DNA of 64,000 nucleotides, from positions 1 through 64,000 of the forward strand of contig JARSSH010000043.1 in NCBI GenBank assembly GCA_029624815.1, given 5' to 3'. Position numbers and translations under genes: made by a program. Positions within the stretch are counted from its first letter, which is position 1. Every line of letters starts with the position of its first letter. A model generated the notes under the pieces. The model did no database searches. It worked only from the letters and a program-made list of their open reading frames with translations, and was not told the DNA's origin. Positions 35,549 to 45,179 of the stretch are shown one piece after another. The DNA comes from Candidatus Competibacter sp. Lineage in GTDB: Bacteria; Pseudomonadota; Gammaproteobacteria; Competibacterales; Competibacteraceae.

Positions 35549-37234
35549 CTAACGCACCACTGATGCCGCGGCCGGAATCATCCATTGCAGGTAATACGCC
35601 TGCACATAGGTGATGATGCCGATGATGACGGCAAAGAATAGGCTATGTTTCAGCGTGAAGCGGAACAAATCCGATTCCTTGCCCACCAATCCCGCCGCCG
35701 CGCAGGCGACCGCGATGGACTGCGGCGAAATCATCTTGCCGGTAACGCCACCCGTGGTGTTGGCCGCGATGGTCAGCACCGGATCGACGCCGATCTGTTG
35801 GGCCGTCACCTGCTGCAAATTGGCAAACAGCGCGTTGCTGGAGGTGTCGGAACCGGTTAGGAAGACGCCCAGCCAACCCAAGAACGGCGAGAAGAAGGGA
35901 AACAGCGCCCCGGTAGCCGCAAAGGCCAGACCCAGCGTCGAGGAAACGCCAGAGTAATTGGCGATAAATGCAAAGCCCAGCACCAGGCCAATGGTGAAAA
36001 TGGGTTTAGCCAATTCGACGAAGGTTTCCCAGAGCGTGGTAAAGAACAGCTTGAAGTGAACTCCCAGGATAAATGCGCTGATGACGGCCGCCAGTAGAAT
36101 GGAGGTTCCCGTCGCCGACAACACATCAAATTTGTAAACGGCATCGTAAGGCGTCAGCGCCTTGACAATCGGTACGGCCTTCATCACCAGTTTGTCCAGG
36201 CCCGGTATATGGAAACTGATCACCCAAGATTCCAACAGAGCGCCTTTAGCGAACAGGCCCTTGAAAGCTGGCAGGGTCCAGACAGTCACCATGATGGTGA
36301 GCACGATGAACGGTGACCAAGCCTTGAAAATTTGCCCGATGCTGTATTGGGAATGTGGATGATCCGCTGGAATATGGGTTCCAGCACCGGCGCTCTGGAA
36401 GGAAAAGGCTTGCTTGGGTTGCCACATGAAGCGCAGGAAAAGGGTCAGGACCAGCAGGCTTACCAAAGCAGAAGTAATATCTGGCAACTCATAAGCCCAG
36501 TGATTCGAGGTGTAATACTGGGTCAAGGCGAAAGCGCCGGCCGCGACGAAAATCGCCGGCCAGGTTTCCCGAACGCCACGCCAGCCATCCATGATGAAGA
36601 CCAGCCAGAAGGGAACGAACAGCGACAATAACGGCAGTTGCCGACCCGCCATTTGGCCGATAAGGAAGGGATCGGTGCTGGTGACCTTCCCGGCGACCGT
36701 GATCGGAATACCCAAGGCGCCAAACGCTACCGGCGCGGTATTGGCGATCAGACACAAACCAGCGGCATAAAGCGGATTGAAACCCAGACCCACCAGGAGC
36801 GCGGCGGTAATCGCCACCGGTGCGCCGAATCCCGCCGCACCTTCCAGAAAGGCGCCGAAACAGAAACCCACCAAGACCATTTGCAGGCGTTGATCGCCGG
36901 TGATGGACAATACCGAAGATCGGATGATCTCGAACTGGCCGGTCTTGACCGTGAGTTTATATAGAAACACGGCGGCCACGATGATCCAGGAAATCGGCCA
37001 CAGACCGTATAAAAAACCATAGCCGGTCGCGGCCAAGGCCATGGAAACCGGCATCTGGTAAATCAACACCGCAATGACAATCGCAAGAGCTACCGTGATC
37101 AATGCGGCGATATGGCCTTTCATTCGCCAAACCGCCAACGCAACGAAGAAAAAGATAATCGGAATGGCGGCAACCAACGCGGAAAGCCATAGGTTGTCAC
37201 CCAATGGCGCATAAATTTGGGTCCAGGACTGCAT
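35549..37234 (-). CDS. lldP: L-lactate permease
   Basis: 561 residues from ATG 37234 ([16 protein letters not shown]), with an AGGAGT ribosome site. LctP-family blocks [36 protein letters not shown] and [17 protein letters not shown]. An inner-membrane proton symporter for lactate, and possibly glycolate. Last gene of lutABC-dld-lldP, followed by an intrinsic terminator. Confidence 0.95.
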
Positions 37235-37379: not shown

Positions 37380-40214
37380 TCAGCCGGTATTTGGCTGTGA
37401 GCAGCGATCGACCAAATAGACGATGGAGCGGTAATAGCGCCTGCTGTGCAGGGATAGGCCGATTTCGCAGGTGCGGCTGGTGGAATACCCGGATGTGCAA
37501 TCCTCCGGCAGCGCCGCCGGCAAATCCCGCAAGGCGCTGGCGTTCAATTCCGGGTGGGTGAAACCCTTGTCTCCGGCCCAGCCGCAACAGGAAATCCGGT
37601 CGGGGACAATGACTTTTTCGACGCAAGCTTCGGCGATGGCCTTCAGCTTGGCCTGCAAGCCCATGTTGATATTGCTACAGGTGGGATGAACGGCGACGGT
37701 TTCCGCCCGCTTGTGAATCGTCAACCGCTCCAGCACGACGTCGTGGAGGAATTCCGTGATGTCGTACAATTTGAGCGGGGTTGGCGCCTGGTTTTTCTTG
37801 ACCCGAAACACACAGGGCGTGGTATCGAACACAATCGGGTCTTGTCCATTGCGGCTGGCCTTGAGCAGGGCCTGCTCGACTTCCCGCCGCTTGGCGTCAG
37901 CCTGCTCCGGCAAGCCTTTACTTTCAAAAGGTTGTCCACAGCAAAGTGAACCGTTGTCCTCGGGCAGGATCACCTCGAATCCAGCCTTACGCAGCAGAGC
38001 GGCGGTTTTCACCGGCAAAGCATCCAACTCGGGATCGCCCTTGGCCGGCCCCATGGTGCGGCTGGCGCAACTGGGGAAATAGACGACCCGCGGACGATCC
38101 AGCGCGGCGTTCGCCTCCGGCTTGGGCATCGTGCCAGCGGAAGGCATATAGCGATTCCACAGCGGCAGCCGATTCCCCGACAGTTTACGCATGGCCCCGG
38201 TCACACCGCCCTGCAACGTGGAGCCAAAAACCGTGTGCGAGAGGTTGGCGGCAGCCAGGTTGAAACGGGTGGCCGTGGTCACGCCGGAGAAGTGATTCGC
38301 CACCCAATTGCCAATCCGTTGCGCGGTTTGACCACGCTGCTGACTACGCTTCTTCAACATCATCGTGCCGGTGTTGATGCCGACCGGACAGGTCAGCGAG
38401 CACAGGCTATCGGCGGCGCAGGTCTCCAACCCTTGATAAGCATACGACTCGGTGAGGGTTTGCAATTGCTGGGCATCTTCGCCGGCGGCTTGCAGACGCG
38501 CCATTTCGCGCAAGCCGACGATACGCTGGCGTGGCGACAGGGTCAGGGCGCGGGACGGACAATTCGGTTCGCAAAAACCGCACTCGATGCACTTATCCAC
38601 CAATGGATCGACGGCGGCCATCGGCTTGATATTTTTCAGATGGGCTTCCGGGTCATCGTTGAGAATGACGCCGGGATTAAGCAAATTGCGTGGATCGAAC
38701 AGGGCCTTGATTTCCCGCATCAACTGGTACGCTTGTTGTCCCCATTCCAACTCGACGAAGGGCGCGATGTTGCGGCCCGTGCCATGCTCGGCTTTCAACG
38801 AGCCGTCGTATTGGTCCACGATCATGTGGCACACATCGTCCATGAAGTTCTTGTAGCGTTCGGTTTCGGCGGGCTTGGCGAAGTCGGGGGTGATGACGAA
38901 GTGCAAATTCCCTTCGAGCGCGTGACCGAAGATGATGGAGCCGGCATAGCCGTGCTGGTCGAACAAGCGCTGTAAATCCAGAGTCATTGCCGCCAGTTGA
39001 GGTACGGGAACCGCGACATCTTCGATGATGACGGTGGTGCCGGTCGCCCGCGCCGAACCGACCGAGGGGAACAGTCCCTGGCGGATCGCCCACAACTGCG
39101 TGAATTCTTCCGGTCGGTCGGTAAATTGGAACGGGAGCAGGGTTGGCTTGTCGGCAATCGCGGCGGTGATGATCTCGACCTGAGCGGTCAAGGTTGCCGG
39201 GTTGGTCGCCCGGGTTTCCACCAACAGGGCGGCGGCGGTCTCCGGCAGTTCCTTGAAGTACGGCGGCATACCGGCCTTATTCTCCACTGAACGCAGCGAG
39301 GCGCGATCCATCAATTCCACCGCAGCCACCGGCTGGCTTTTCAGCGCCGCCACGGCTTCGCAAGCGACCTTAATGTCGGGGAAGATCATCAGCGCCGTGG
39401 CTTTATGCGTATGCTCCTCGACCGTGTGATAGGTGATCTCGGCGATGAAGCCCAACGTGCCTTCGGAACCGATCATCAGGTGTTGGAAGATCTCGAAGGG
39501 GTCTTCGTAATCCACCAAGGCGTTGAGGCTGTAACCGCAGGTGTTCTTGATTTTGAATTTGGCGCGGATGCGTTCCGCCAACGCCGCGTCGGCGCGGGTG
39601 CGCTGGCCCAGTTCGGCAAGTTGCGTGAGTAGAGCGCCGTGACTGGCGCGGAAGGCTGCGCGGCTGGTGGGATCGCCGGTGTCCAGCAATGTGCCGTCGG
39701 CCAGCATGACGCGCATGCTTTTCAGGGTCTTATAGCTGTTTTGCGCAGTGCCGCAGCACATGCCGCTGGCGTTATTGGCGGCAATGCCGCCGATCTGGCA
39801 GGTGTTGATCGATGCGGGATCGGGACCGATCTTGCGTTGATAAGGAGCCAGATAGCGGTTGGCGTGACCGCCGATGATGCCCGGTTGCAGACTGACGGTC
39901 GCCGCGCCCTCGCCGATGCGCCAGTTGCGCCAGCCATCGCCCAGTTGCAATAAAACGGAGTCGGTGACCGCCTGCCCGGACAGGCTGGTGCCGGCGGCGC
40001 GGAAGGTCACCGGAGTACCGTATTGGTGCGCCAGCGCCAGGATGCGCCGCATCTCGTCTTCGCTGTCCACCCGCACCACCAGTTTGGGAATCAGCCGGTA
40101 CAGGCTGGCGTCGGTGCCGTAGGCAAGGGTACGCAAGGGGTCGCTGATCAGGCGCGCTGCCGGAATGAAGCGTTGCAGGTCGCGGTGCAGATGGTCGTGG
40201 GCCGTCGATGACAT
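37380..40214 (-). CDS. dld: FAD/Fe-S D-lactate dehydrogenase (Dld-II type)
   Basis: 944 residues. The N-terminal FAD-binding domain (1-260, [13 protein letters not shown] and GSEGTLGF) is followed by an FAD-oxidase C domain (to about 500). A ferredoxin-like pair of [4Fe-4S] motifs comes next ([12 protein letters not shown] and CSLTCPVGI), then cysteine-rich CCG-type domains ([12 protein letters not shown] and ISCCGWAG). The fused architecture is that of quinone-linked D-lactate dehydrogenases found with lutABC. It oxidises D-lactate to pyruvate at the inner membrane. D-2-hydroxyglutarate or related acids are alternative substrates. Confidence 0.92.
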
Positions 40215-40355: not shown

Positions 40356-41009
40356 TTAGTCGTCCAGGATCAGCACGATCAACTCCTTGGGACCGTGAAC
40401 GCCAAAGGTCAGAACCAATTCGATATCGGCGGTCTTGGATGGACCGGAGATCAACAAGGCATTGGTCGGCATTCCCTCCGCCCAATGTTCCCGGCGGATG
40501 GCTTCGGCGAGGGAGCCATGAATCTTCGCCGCCTCCAGCACCGCGATATGCAGCGCCGGCGCCAACGACATCAAGCGCGGTTCCTGTGGAGTGGGCCAAA
40601 GGATCAGGGCGCCCACGTCAGCCAGTCCGCCCTGAGTCGAGGTGATGCCCGCGTCGATGGCGAACAACCGTTCCTTGCACTGCTCCACTGCTTCGGTATA
40701 GCCGACCAGCGGTGGCAAATCGCTTTCCCAGGTTTCTTCCAAGGTGATCCCGATGGGCGTTGCCGGGCCGTACAGAAGACCGTTCGCCGAGCGTTTGCGC
40801 AGCACGTCCTTGAGAACGGCCGTCCAATTTCCGCTATCGGTAAGGTGCACCTCGGCGTGCATGGCTTCCATCAGCCGCTTGAGCCGATCCATCTTGTCGG
40901 CGCGGCCGAGTTCCGTCTCGGGCGGTGCGGCGATTTCAGGCGTGGCAACGCTATCTTGAGGCGTTGCCGCCCGCAGTCTGGCGAGAATATTGGCGCGGGC
41001 GTCACTCAT
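40356..41009 (-). CDS. lutC: Lactate utilisation protein C (LUD domain)
   Basis: 217 residues from MSDARANILARLRAA. LUD domain with the late block SGPSKTADIELVLTFGVHGP, typical of LutC/LldG. It is required with LutA and LutB for L-lactate oxidation. It overlaps the end of lutB by 8 nt. Confidence 0.93.
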   Translation of the reverse strand: MSDARANILARLRAATPQDSVATPEIAAPPETELGRADKMDRLKRLMEAMHAEVHLTDSGNWTAVLKDVLRKRSANGLLYGPATPIGITLEETWESDLPPLVGYTEAVEQCKERLFAIDAGITSTQGGLADVGALILWPTPQEPRLMSLAPALHIAVLEAAKIHGSLAEAIRREHWAEGMPTNALLISGPSKTADIELVLTFGVHGPKELIVLILDD

Positions 41010-42444
41010 CGCCGATCCCCTTTTCCTTGGCGAGCACATGCAGGCTCTTGCTGGCGAACGGAGGCAAGGCGCGGGATTGAGTCCACTTTTTCACGATGTC
41101 CGGCGCCGGCAACTTGGACAGTTGCGGACCCAGCAGACCCAACAACCTGGCGTTCAGGGCGTTGACCCAAGGCGTGGCGTTGCTCAATGCCCAGCCTTTC
41201 CAGGTCAGATTCTCCGCCGCGTTGACTTTATAGCCGTGACCTTTAACCGCATGAGGAGAATCCGCCTTGTTGTAGGCTTCGACGCGCAGGCGGCGCAGGA
41301 TATCGACGATGGGGATCTTGACCGGGCACACTTCCTCGCAGGCTCCGCAAAACGTGGAGGCGGTCGCCATCGCGCCGGCGTTCTCCAAGCCTTCCAGTTG
41401 CGGCGTCAGAATCGAGCCAATGGGGCCGGGATAGACGTAACCATAGGCATGGCCGCCAAGGCGGGTGTACACCGGGCAATGGTTCAGGCAAGTGCCGCAG
41501 CGGATGCACTTCAGTGTTTGCCGCAGTTCGGGATCGGCCCAGATTTGGGTGCGGCCGTTGTCGAGCAGAACCAGATGGACCTCCTTGGGGCCGTCCTTCT
41601 CGTCCGGCTTGCGCGGCGAAGTGATCATATTGAAATAAGTGGTGATTAACTGGCCGGTGGCCGAGCCGGTGAGCAAGCGCAACAGCGGCGGCACGTCCTC
41701 CAGGCGCTCCACCACCTTTTCCAAACCCATCACCGCGATATGCACCGGCGGCGCGGTGGTGCACATGCGACCGTTGCCCTCGTTTTCCACCAGGCACAGC
41801 GTGCCGGTTTCGGCGACCGCGAAATTGACCCCGCTGACCCCGACTTCCCCGGCGAAAAACTTCTCGCGCAAGACTTGCCGGGCGATGGCGTTCAGTTCCT
41901 CGACGACTTCGGTGTACGGGGTGTTGGGAATCTTTTCGTGAAACAGCCGGGCGATCTGATCGCGGTTCTTGTGAATCGCCGGGACAATGATGTGCGACGG
42001 CGTTTCGTGATCCAGTTGGATGATGTACTCGCCGAGATCCGTCTCCAGCGCTTCGATGCCGTGTCCCTCCAGGAAATGATTGAGGTGCATTTCCTCCGAC
42101 ACCATCGATTTGCCCTTGATGACGCGGGTGGCGTTGTGGCGCTGAATGATCGCCAGGCAAATCCGGCTGGCTTCGTCCGGGGTCTCGGCCCAGTGCACCT
42201 GGATGCCGTTTTCGGTGCATGTCCGCTCCAGTTGCTCCAGCAATTGCGGCAGTTTGTTCAGCGCCCGTCGCCGGATGGCGTCGCCGCGCGCCCGCAGTTG
42301 CTCGAACGCTTCCGGGTCGGAGAACAGGTTCCGACGCCGCAGCCCCAAGGTGTCCATGGCGGCCCGGAGGTTGCGACGCAACTGCCCGTCGTTCAGGGCC
42401 TTGGTGAAATTCCTGGGAAAATCGACGGTAACGGGATTAGCCAT
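41002..42444 (-). CDS. lutB: Lactate utilisation iron-sulfur protein B
   Basis: 480 residues from MANPVTVDFPRNF. An N-terminal LUD domain is followed by two [4Fe-4S] motifs (CIRCGTCLNHCPVY and CGACEEVCPVKIPI). It carries electrons from L-lactate oxidation toward the quinone pool. Its start lies within the last codons of lutA (8-nt overlap). Confidence 0.95.
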   Translation of the reverse strand: MANPVTVDFPRNFTKALNDGQLRRNLRAAMDTLGLRRRNLFSDPEAFEQLRARGDAIRRRALNKLPQLLEQLERTCTENGIQVHWAETPDEASRICLAIIQRHNATRVIKGKSMVSEEMHLNHFLEGHGIEALETDLGEYIIQLDHETPSHIIVPAIHKNRDQIARLFHEKIPNTPYTEVVEELNAIARQVLREKFFAGEVGVSGVNFAVAETGTLCLVENEGNGRMCTTAPPVHIAVMGLEKVVERLEDVPPLLRLLTGSATGQLITTYFNMITSPRKPDEKDGPKEVHLVLLDNGRTQIWADPELRQTLKCIRCGTCLNHCPVYTRLGGHAYGYVYPGPIGSILTPQLEGLENAGAMATASTFCGACEEVCPVKIPIVDILRRLRVEAYNKADSPHAVKGHGYKVNAAENLTWKGWALSNATPWVNALNARLLGLLGPQLSKLPAPDIVKKWTQSRALPPFASKSLHVLAKEKGIGDE

Positions 42445-43177
42445 GAGCGCGCTCCAGGATGAATTCGGCGACATGCTTGACGGGAATCGGAATCTTGCGG
42501 TGCTCCAGCGCCCCGCCGATATTCATCAGGCAGCCGCAGTCGCCGGACAGCAGCAGGGCAGCGCCGGTTTGTTCGATGTCCGCGACCTTGTCGGCCACCA
42601 TCGCCGAGGACAAATCGGCTTGCTTGACGGAGAAGGAGCCACCGAATCCGCAGCATTCGCGTTCCCGTTGCAGTTCGATCATCTCGACGTTTTTCAACTG
42701 GCGAACGAGCGACTTCGAGTATTCGATCACCCGCATCTCGCGCAGCGCGCTACAGGACGAGTGCCAGGTGACCTTGATCGGTTGTCCCCGATCCTCCAGC
42801 TTGACGTCGAGTACCCGGACCAGAAATTCGCTCAATTCGAAAACACGGTCGGAGAAGCGTTTCGCCACGGTGGCCTCGGGCTCGTCGGCGAACAGCTTGG
42901 GATAGTGGTGTTTCAGCATCCCGCCGCAGGAGCCGGACGGAACGATGATCGGATAATCCTTGGCGAATGCCTTAAGCTGCTGGCGGGCGACCCTTCTGGC
43001 TTCTTCCGGAAAGCCGGAGTTGTAGGCGGGTTGGCCGCAGCAGGATTGTTGCTGGGGATAAATGACCTGGATGCCTGCGTGTCGCAGGAGTTCGATGCCG
43101 GCCATGCCGGCTTGGGGATAACACAGGTCGATCAGACAGGTACCGAAGTAATACACCTTCTCGGGACGGGTGGGCAT
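42437..43177 (-). CDS. lutA: Lactate utilisation protein A (CCG domains)
   Basis: 246 residues. Two cysteine-rich CCG domains (QSCCGQPAYNSGFPEEA and RECCGFGGSFSVKQ) probably hold an unusual Fe-S cluster, as in heterodisulfide reductase B. First gene of the operon, so expression starts at the promoter just upstream. Confidence 0.95.
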   Translation of the reverse strand: MPTRPEKVYYFGTCLIDLCYPQAGMAGIELLRHAGIQVIYPQQQSCCGQPAYNSGFPEEARRVARQQLKAFAKDYPIIVPSGSCGGMLKHHYPKLFADEPEATVAKRFSDRVFELSEFLVRVLDVKLEDRGQPIKVTWHSSCSALREMRVIEYSKSLVRQLKNVEMIELQRERECCGFGGSFSVKQADLSSAMVADKVADIEQTGAALLLSGDCGCLMNIGGALEHRKIPIPVKHVAEFILERAHG

Positions 43178-43316
43178 GGGTATCCCTTCTTCGACTTTGG
43201 TGGTTGGCGCCGCCTACATGCCATCGATCCGAACCGCGGCGGTCGATGGTGGGGTGGTGGCTTCTCATTTTATCCACCGTTACCGGGCCAATCTGGAGTT
43301 GGCATTTTTGGTAAGG

Positions 43317-43382
43317 TGGTCTGACCAAATTTATAGCAGCTTGCTTTTGGGATTGCAAGTATTTGGTTATGTGGTCTGACCA
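43317..43382 (-). promoter_or_regulatory. lutA promoter flanked by two LldR-type operators
   Basis: Minus strand: -35 TTGCAA (43358-43353) and -10 TATAAA (43335-43330), 17-bp spacing. Identical palindromes TGGTCTGACCA lie at 43317-43327, over the predicted start site, and at 43372-43382, upstream of the -35; their centres are 55 bp apart. TGGTnnnACCA matches the operator pattern of FadR-type GntR regulators such as LldR and PdhR. The regulator gene is divergent and adjacent. Binding at both sites could repress by occlusion or looping until lactate is present. Confidence 0.75.
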
Positions 43383-43386
43383 AAAT

Positions 43387-43414
43387 TTTGCTAAGCTAGA
43401 ATTAATGCTATAAA
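43387..43414 (+). promoter_or_regulatory. Candidate lldR promoter
   Basis: TTTGCT (43387-43392) and TATAAA (43409-43414), 16 bp apart, begin 4 nt downstream of the upstream operator (43372-43382). If used, lldR would be autoregulated by the same site. Its spacing and -35 are weaker than those of the lutA promoter. Confidence 0.4.
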
Positions 43415-43508
43415 CAATGCGGTTGTCGCGATGTTTGGGCGCCGATGAAACGAGTGCCGTGTGGCACAATAGCGATGACGATATTGAGTTCAATACTTGG
43501 GCAAAATC

Positions 43509-44297
43509 ATGCAATACGAAACGATTAACCCTCCGAAGGTCTCGGATGCCATCGTCAACCAGATCGAGCAGTTGATCCTGGAAGGCGTTCTCAAACCGGG
43601 CGAACGGTTGCCTCCGGAGCGGGAGCTCGCTCAGGAGTTGAACGTATCCCGCCCGTCCCTGCGGGAGGCAATCACGACGCTGAAGTCCCGAGGACTGTTG
43701 CAGAGCCGGCGCGGCGGAGGGAATTTTGTGGTCGATGTGATCGCGCCCACCCTGACCGATCCCCTGATCGAGCTATTGAAAAACCATCCCAAGGCCATGT
43801 TCGACGTGCTGGAATTGCGCCATGCCCTAGAGGAGGTCGCGGCCTACTTCGCCGCGTTGCGCGCCACCGATGCCGACCGGGAAATCCTGCGGTGTCGCTT
43901 CGCCGAGTTGGAGGAGATACAACGGGGCCAGCGCAAGCCCGAACACGACGCCGTGGTGGATGCGGGATTTCATCTCGCCATCGCCGACGCCTCCCACAAT
44001 GTGGCCCTGATCCATGTGATGCGCGGTCTGTTCGATTTGCTGCTCAGTAATATCTGTCGTTCGCTGGAGCGGCTTTATACCCGCGAAAGCAGCTATGCGC
44101 TGGTCCATTCCCAACATCAGGCCATCCTGAATGCCGTGTTGGAACGCGATCCGGAAGCCGCCCGGCATGCGGCCCACGTTCATTTGGCCTTCGTCGAATC
44201 CACCTTGCGCGAACTCGACCAGGAAGCCGCCCGGCAGGAACGCTCGAAACGACGCTTGCATAGCCTGTTGGATCTGGAAGCCAATGCCGAGTCGTAG
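43509..44297 (+). CDS. lldR: GntR/FadR-type lactate-responsive regulator
   Basis: 262 residues from MQYETINPPKVSD. N-terminal winged helix (LKPGERLPPERELAQELNVS, then RPSLREAITTLKSRGLL) and a C-terminal FCD ligand domain with metal-binding His positions (DAGFHLAIADASHN and SQHQAIL). Close in type to PdhR/LldR, which sense pyruvate or lactate. Divergent from lutABC-dld-lldP and next to two matching operators, so it most likely controls that operon. Confidence 0.9.
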   Translation: MQYETINPPKVSDAIVNQIEQLILEGVLKPGERLPPERELAQELNVSRPSLREAITTLKSRGLLQSRRGGGNFVVDVIAPTLTDPLIELLKNHPKAMFDVLELRHALEEVAAYFAALRATDADREILRCRFAELEEIQRGQRKPEHDAVVDAGFHLAIADASHNVALIHVMRGLFDLLLSNICRSLERLYTRESSYALVHSQHQAILNAVLERDPEAARHAAHVHLAFVESTLRELDQEAARQERSKRRLHSLLDLEANAES

Positions 44298-44405
44298 TTT
44301 CGCTGGGGTTTTGTCGAACGCTAAGGTCCGGGTCGGTTGCCTGGAATGGCGGCGGAAGCGGCCTGGCCAGCCAATGCGGATTATTCCAAGCTTTCGGGAG
44401 CGATA

Positions 44406-45179
44406 ATGGCCACCGATCCTGAAGATTCCGGCCAGCTTTTGAACGCCGCCGCCGAATTGACCATCGCCGGAAGAAAGATCCGGCTGGAAATGCCGGTGCC
44501 GGCCGGGCCGACGCGCCTGGACAAGTTGCTGCCTTTCCTGCGCTATTTAACCGATCGATTCGTCGATTTCTCGGTGGAGAACGCGCGGATGGAGGGGTTG
44601 ACGGTATCGTGCCGGAAGGGCTGCGGCGCCTGCTGCCGGCAACTGGTTCCCATCTCGGCGATCGAGGCGCGGCGGCTTGGAGAGGTGGTGGAGCAGATGC
44701 CGGAACCCCGGAAATCCATCGTCCTGGCCCGTTTCGAGGAGGCGAGACAACGCTTGCAAGCAGCCGGGTTGCTGGAGAAGCTGCGCGAGCCGAACCGTGT
44801 TGGCGACGATGAAGTTGATCCGATCGGGCTGGCCTATTTCCAGCAAGGAATCGCCTGTCCGTTCCTGGAAGATGAGTCATGCTCGATCTACGAGGAGCGC
44901 CCCCTGGCCTGTCGCGAGTATCTGGTGGTCAGCCCGGCCGAGAATTGCGCCCGGCCGACCGTGGACTCGATCCAACCGGTGCCCATCGTCGTCCGGGTTG
45001 CCAAGACAGTGAGGGCGCTGAATGTCGAGAAAACGCCTTCCGCGCCCCGCTGGGTGGCGCTTGTCCTGGCGCTGGAACAGGCGGACATCCGTCCGGATGA
45101 AACACCGTCTCAACCCGGTCCCGAACTGGTGCGGGAAATATTCGGTCGGCTGACGGGGCGGGATGCGGAGAGTGGATAA
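44406..45179 (+). CDS. YkgJ-family Fe/Zn-chelating Cys-cluster protein
   Basis: 257 residues from ATG 44406 (GGGAGC ribosome site). The motif CRKGCGACCRQLVPIS and then CPFLEDESCSIYEERPLACR is the CxCxxxC-type cluster of YkgJ/UPF0153 proteins, thought to bind Fe-S or zinc. The role is unknown in general; members often sit with oxidoreductases. It lies between lldR and the convergent hisD. Confidence 0.85.
   Translation: MATDPEDSGQLLNAAAELTIAGRKIRLEMPVPAGPTRLDKLLPFLRYLTDRFVDFSVENARMEGLTVSCRKGCGACCRQLVPISAIEARRLGEVVEQMPEPRKSIVLARFEEARQRLQAAGLLEKLREPNRVGDDEVDPIGLAYFQQGIACPFLEDESCSIYEERPLACREYLVVSPAENCARPTVDSIQPVPIVVRVAKTVRALNVEKTPSAPRWVALVLALEQADIRPDETPSQPGPELVREIFGRLTGRDAESG

Follow-up and report, generated by a model that had tools for sequence, protein, structure and literature searches.

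Two putative operators bracketing a predicted lactate-gene promoter are conserved in Competibacteraceae

In the genome of a Candidatus Competibacter bacterium we found two identical putative palindromic operators, which flank a predicted sigma-70-type promoter in front of lldE, and this whole unit is conserved among relatives of the strain. We consider it quite likely that the cassette represents the operator-promoter unit of lldEFG, probably together with dld and lldP, and that it would be repressed by the FadR/FCD-type regulator encoded divergently. It belongs to a known type of switch and is well conserved between this wastewater bacterium and its relatives. Competibacter-type wastewater bacteria are glycogen-accumulating organisms, and the unit predicts how this lineage switches on lactate use. 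All coordinates refer to the window, i.e. the whole stretch of 64,000 nucleotides that was analysed, and are listed in Table 1.

The lldE promoter region in the window

The regulator gene and lldE are oriented divergently with 331 bp between them. The reading frames of lldE, lldF and lldG overlap and are followed by 141 bp up to dld and by another ~145 bp up to lldP. Given these gaps, we only infer that dld and lldP belong to the operon, and the promoter of lldE-lldF-lldG probably serves them as well. The dld-type dehydrogenase scored below every NCBIfam cut-off shown, and its substrate is, judging from the gene context, probably D-lactate. Directly downstream of the regulator gene lies a gene for a CxxCxxCC (PF03692) protein (44337-45179), which is possibly cotranscribed with it.

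Table 1 Features of the predicted lactate oxidation locus in the window.
Feature	Coordinates	Strand	Evidence or remark
Putative operator O1, core TGGTCTGACCA	43317..43327	+	Overlaps predicted +1 of the lldE promoter; 9/11 core columns invariant (14 loci)
Putative operator O2, core TGGTCTGACCA	43372..43382	+	Centre at ~-54 relative to predicted lldE transcription start; 9/11 core columns invariant (14 loci)
O1 accessory half-site TGGT, 8 bp before core TGGT	43309..43312	+	TTGGT at 43308-43312 invariant (14/14 loci)
O2 accessory half-site TGGT, 8 bp before core TGGT	43364..43367	+	4/5 columns of 43363-43367 invariant
Predicted -35 hexamer TTGCAA, lldE promoter	43353..43358	-	Invariant (14/14 loci)
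Predicted extended -10 (TGC + TATAAA), 17 bp from -35	43330..43338	-	TAT in 14/14, TGC in 13/14 loci
lldE, cysteine-rich CCG-domain subunit of lactate oxidase	42437..43177	-	Pfam CCG 110.1 bits
lldF/lutB, iron-sulfur subunit	41002..42474	-	TIGR00273 494.2 bits (cut-off 444.8)
lldG/lutC, LUD-domain subunit	40356..41039	-	Pfam LUD_dom 126 bits; no NCBIfam match
dld-type FAD/Fe-S 2-hydroxyacid dehydrogenase	37380..40214	-	Pfam FAD-oxidase_C, FAD_binding_4, Fer4, CCG
lldP, lactate permease	35552..37234	-	PF02652 695.1 bits at 35603-37186; first in-frame ATG at 37234; coordinates exclude the stop codon
Divergent FadR/FCD-type GntR regulator ("lldR" by context)	43509..44297	+	Pfam GntR, FCD

A sequence-only reading of the region had pointed to two exact copies of the 11-mer TGGTCTGACCA with centres 55 bp apart and with TTGCAA/17/TATAAA between them. 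A pattern match bore out all three points. The putative operators O1 and O2 are centred at 43322 and 43377, both cores fall within 66 bp roughly halfway between the two genes, and the promoter elements lie between them on the minus strand (TTGCAA at 43358-43353, the TATAAA hexamer alone at 43335-43330). Based on base composition, 0.027 exact copies of the 11-mer are expected on both strands of the window, and the 3.63 Mb genome contains it at four places, namely O1, O2 and two positions within long open frames (L001 and L004). This expected count and the genome-wide rarity rule out a chance origin of the pair. When up to two mismatches were allowed, the window contained 19 matches, compared with 12.0 ± 4.0 in shuffled sequences, and 19 was reached in 5 of 100 shuffles. 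The loose matches are thus hardly above the shuffled level, and the exact pair alone represents the signal. The pattern TGGTNNGACCA occurs at 13 other places in the genome, which are mostly located inside long open frames (L012, L014 and L015 are ambiguous). A wider regulon based on a loose pattern was rejected, since the reversed control gave more matches than the real pattern (28 and 33 vs 11 and 10), which makes the loose pattern uninformative.

A consensus promoter scan of positions 42900-43800 reported no promoter, because the scan requires a final T in the -10 element, which is absent from TATAAA. It is conservation (see below) rather than the consensus scan that supports TTGCAA-17-TATAAA as the putative promoter. 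Placing +1 at 7 bp past the -10 element gives a predicted start at ~43323, relative to which O1 would extend from ~-4 to +7 and its accessory box from ~+12 to +15. Two other candidates were dismissed: a terminator-like hairpin at 43287-43303 (one found vs 0.9 expected), and an lldR promoter overlapping O2, which is not conserved. A TGGCACAATA-like block at 43462-43471, located ~40 bp before the start of the regulator gene, contains GCACAA in 11 of 14 loci; it lies 80 bp past O2 and may represent an extended -10 element of a promoter for the regulator gene itself.

Conservation of the cassette in the family

We searched 39 genomes of the family for the regulator (E <= 1e-40) and obtained a match in 19 of them, 16 of which encode a regulator with at least 82% identity. 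The following comparison covers 14 loci; outside this count are G002 and G020, whose contigs stop short of the operators, as well as G007, G011 and G017, whose regulators are 50-53% identical. Both operators are present in all 14 loci with upstream DNA. They are of the TGGT type in 13 loci, and O1 of the remaining one (L029) starts with CGGT. The distance between them is 55 bp in six loci, 54 bp in seven and 53 bp in one. That a lactate-gene promoter lies between two operators beside a divergent GntR/FCD regulator, as proposed in the sequence-only reading, is therefore supported by a pair kept at near-constant spacing in 14 of 14 loci.

The predicted promoter is conserved as well. TTGCAA, the 17-bp spacer and the subsequent TAT are found in every one of the 14 loci, and TGC precedes TAT in 13; the -10 hexamer reads TATAAA in eight loci, TATGCT in three, and TATTAT, TATTCT and TATATT in one each. 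Mean identity to the window reaches 0.92 and 0.97 in the cores, 1.0 in the -35 element and values within 0.92-1.0 in the accessory boxes, compared with 0.79 in the -10 element, 0.62 in the promoter spacer and 0.56 in both flanks.

The accessory boxes had been overlooked in the sequence-only reading. An extra TGGT is located exactly 8 bp upstream of the core in 28 of the 28 operators of the 14 loci, on the same side in both copies, so that the repeating unit is TGGTnnnnTGGTCNGACCA, arranged in tandem. The accessory half-site of O2 is located 5 bp from the -35 hexamer. A mirrored GGT on the opposite side of the core was found in 0 of 27 exact TGGTNNNACCA sites. Since the accessory boxes point in the same direction while the adjacent promoter elements differ, the shared constraint probably originates with the regulator rather than the promoter.

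Across the 39 family genomes, the composite TGGTNNNNTGGTNNGACCA gave 31 matches, 27 of which are located in the cassette and four elsewhere, compared with two matches of the reversed control. The four stray matches (L144, L145, L150 and L160) were checked for covering frames; the one at L145 (~1501-1519, in G007) is a single composite match, TGGTAAGTTGGTATGACCA, beside a frame which, we assume, may encode a universal-stress-like protein. No pair matching the exact composite was found in the 20 family genomes without a regulator match; several of these genomes are incomplete, and a lone match occurs in one of them. In a sample of 369 genomes of the class, including the source genome, two others matched the composite (G051 and G203), and the reversed control matched four times. 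Both matches are located within the long frame of one and the same gene, which we take to be that of glutamate-cysteine ligase. The cassette goes with lactate genes: at L029 (2260-2560), a locus in which lldE gave no match, it precedes dld, and at L022 (1-933) the lldE match is limited to the first 32 codons and dld is close by. The three family genomes with the less similar regulators (50-53%) show other layouts upstream: one TGGTCATACCA is found at L035, none at L034, one TGGTCTGACCA at L040, and two TGGTCTTACCA separated by 93 bp at L033. The last of these layouts belongs to a related regulator of Plasticicumulans lactativorans (L033/L054), a member of the same family.

The two operators could in principle be independent, operon-specific sites, of which O1 would repress lldE and O2 would autoregulate lldR. 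Among FadR-subfamily double-site divergons, 71 of 100 were assigned to such a type and 29 of 100 were judged cooperative, as reported in section 16 of PMC4494728. Among 12 distant lldEF-labelled relatives, the outer sites are separated by 171-226 bp in nine (in one of these a third site lies in between) and the two sites of L113 by 109 bp; L078 and L106 each carry a single site. In the 12 loci with an lldE start, however, the pair is central and its sites are 54-55 bp apart for intergenic lengths of 306-353 bp (r = 0.36, for a narrow length range and related loci). Moreover, O2 adjoins the -35 element of lldE, and 80 bp separate O2 from the start of TGGCACAATA, which is the most conserved block resembling an lldR promoter. 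We consider independent sites unlikely on these grounds. A central pair with a near-constant distance at varying intergenic length, as seen here in 12 related loci, is also what characterises the central double-site divergons (group 1) as described in PMC4494728.

Identity and possible effector of the regulator

The regulator belongs to the FadR subfamily of GntR proteins, with scores above the cut-offs for PF00392 (77.9 bits) and PF07729 (68.2 bits). The residues Asp151, His155, His203 and His225, which we take to be the metal ligands of the FCD domain, are invariant in an alignment of 12 proteins. Regarding its designation as lldR in the sequence-only reading, a divergent GntR/FCD regulator is indeed located beside lactate oxidation genes, which it may control; orthology to LldR was not established. 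The regulator scored 257.1 bits against LldR (NCBIfam NF007741, cut-off 311) and 285.6 bits against PdhR (NF007001, cut-off 330), the latter being its best NCBIfam score, and it is 48% identical to PdhR, 41% to LldR and 36% to GlcC of E. coli. Of its 80 top-ranking relatives (out of 588 or more), L043, a protein from a Candidatus Competibacteraceae metagenome-assembled genome (MAG), is 94% identical to it.

We calculated a FastTree phylogeny of 100 proteins, which included nine of the 14 family regulators and, as relatives, the best 80 of at least 588. In this tree, the regulator groups with L048, which is linked to lldEF-lldP, and with the aceE-linked L040 and L055 (support 0.912), and the next group consists of the aceE-linked L036, L061 and L075 (support 0.95). 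Thus, within this set of relatives, five of the six nearest neighbours outside the family-specific clade are adjacent to aceE. E. coli LldR and Pseudomonas lldP-linked proteins form a separate clade (support 0.854), outside which the regulator falls, and E. coli PdhR is found among enterobacterial aceE-linked proteins in a clade apart from it. On its sequence, the regulator is not an orthologue of E. coli-type LldR. As both NCBIfam cut-offs were missed and the neighbours are mostly linked to aceE, the name "lldR" rests on gene context.

With five of six nearest neighbours located beside aceE, the effector could be pyruvate. The regulator might be a PdhR-like sensor that answers to pyruvate also or mainly, rather than a lactate sensor, a reading for which the top NCBIfam score, the tree neighbours and the higher identity to E. 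coli PdhR speak, but which we regard as rather doubtful. The organism's own aceE has no T[GT]GTnnnAC[CA]A site within the 1.27 kb before its match, the composite pair in the family is found solely before lactate genes, and E. coli PdhR itself belongs to another, enterobacterial clade. In addition, the operator agrees with the box of E. coli LldR, AAnTGGTCnGACCAnTT, which was determined by genomic SELEX and occurs twice per target according to the available text of PMC10272880: the TGGTCnGACCA core is matched exactly in both operators and the flanks partly. This fit makes binding by a regulator of such type credible. Common to both systems are, as far as that source goes, the core, two boxes per target, a FadR/FCD regulator and lactate genes. 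In E. coli, however, lldR is located inside lldPRD and not divergently, the lldPRD operators AATTGGCCCTACCAATT and AATTGGCAGTGCCACTT are separated by ~125 bp and, as judged by eye, lack a TGGT 8 bp upstream, and the 41% identical LldR belongs to another branch of the tree. The Competibacter genome encodes two FCD regulators, the second of which (C21) may also bind the operators, which counts against our preferred explanation.

Proposed mode of repression and role of the accessory half-sites

We propose that dimers of the divergent regulator would bind both palindromes. A dimer at O1 would cover the -10/+1 region, and a dimer at O2, together with the accessory box, would cover the DNA immediately upstream of the -35 element. 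With both operators occupied, the promoter would be covered from both sides and RNA polymerase would be shut out, so that repression would most likely be based on promoter occlusion. The dimers would be released when the FCD domain takes up an organic acid, either lactate or, as a possible alternative, pyruvate or glycolate. The accessory half-sites would strengthen binding by offering a seat for a second dimer or for an extra domain. DNA looping would be possible, yet unneeded for repression.

Looped repression, in which two operator-bound dimers would form a tetramer and bend the 55-bp promoter DNA into a small loop, appears quite improbable to us. The near-constant spacing of 53-55 bp is in line with it, and a loop model was reportedly put forward for E. 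coli LldR by Aguilera in 2008. However, closing a loop of only 55 bp would be very difficult unless a protein bends the DNA, and the operator spacing is tied to the promoter in any case; it could stem from promoter geometry alone. The idea of the sequence-only reading that the operators are about five turns apart on the same DNA face holds only approximately: 55 bp amounts to 5.24 turns at 10.5 bp per turn, which places the sites ~86 degrees off phase, and an offset of up to this size speaks against a loop. Looping was shown for the FCD regulator Atu1419, which likewise has two intergenic palindromes, but this protein is a tetramer with sites 190 bp apart, for which the loop was seen by electron microscopy, and all GntR regulators studied before it were dimeric, as stated in the available text of PMC7797058.

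Promoter occlusion by bound dimers, our preferred reading, can be compared with several described systems. Double-site divergons and extra half-sites (PMC4494728), stacked dimers (NanR; PMC8012715) and looping (Atu1419; PMC7797058) are already in print, judging from the available text of these sources. The cassette resembles the central double-site divergons of section 16 of PMC4494728 in its divergent regulator, its two mid-intergenic sites and their near-constant distance, whereas the Competibacteraceae pair also brackets a recognisable promoter. We found no mention of Competibacteraceae in the available part of that paper, and no paper on such a regulator or operator in this family among the matches listed in our literature search.

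For 13 FadR groups, section 17 of PMC4494728 describes additional half-sites at a distance of 7-12 nt from the centre of the palindrome, the role of which is left to experiment. The centre of the Competibacteraceae accessory box is ~11.5 nt off the palindrome centre and thus within this range. The published half-sites, however, are weaker and occur on one or both sides, whereas all 28 Competibacteraceae operators have a complete TGGT, and its side never changes. As it is duplicated, fully conserved and confined to one side, the box offers an unusually clean natural case for studying extra half-sites at GntR palindromes, and a natural series of 28 operator copies plus the promoter variants of 14 loci is at hand.

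As a tentative extension, for which we see a limited chance, each operator might be a composite of three half-sites (TGGT-8 bp-TGGT-inverted ACCA) that takes up two dimers asymmetrically, with four dimers boxing in the promoter in tandem. If true, an FCD regulator that lacks the N-terminal extension of NanR would stack in a NanR-like but strict and polar manner, and the four dimers would give a steep lactate switch without looping. NanR, also of the FadR subfamily, stacks its dimers on close GGT direct repeats, placing one domain on a consensus stretch and the other on non-consensus DNA; in E. coli it binds (GGTATA)3 direct repeats, and its cooperativity requires a 32-residue N-terminal extension, as far as described in PMC8012715. 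The NanR site thus consists of direct repeats, whereas the Competibacteraceae site consists of a palindrome plus one direct repeat. An N-terminal extension of the NanR type is absent from the regulator: residues 9-238 align to residues 30-257 of NanR, and the part before the alignment is ~21 residues shorter.

Extra half-sites were also seen in more distant relatives (L044-L122). Of their 111 PdhR/LldR-type sites, eight carry an extra GGT/ACC 8 bp to the left and 11 carry one 8 bp to the right, compared with 0-3 at other offsets, save offset 20 with five and seven. This amounts to a modest peak at 8 bp and a further one at 20 bp.
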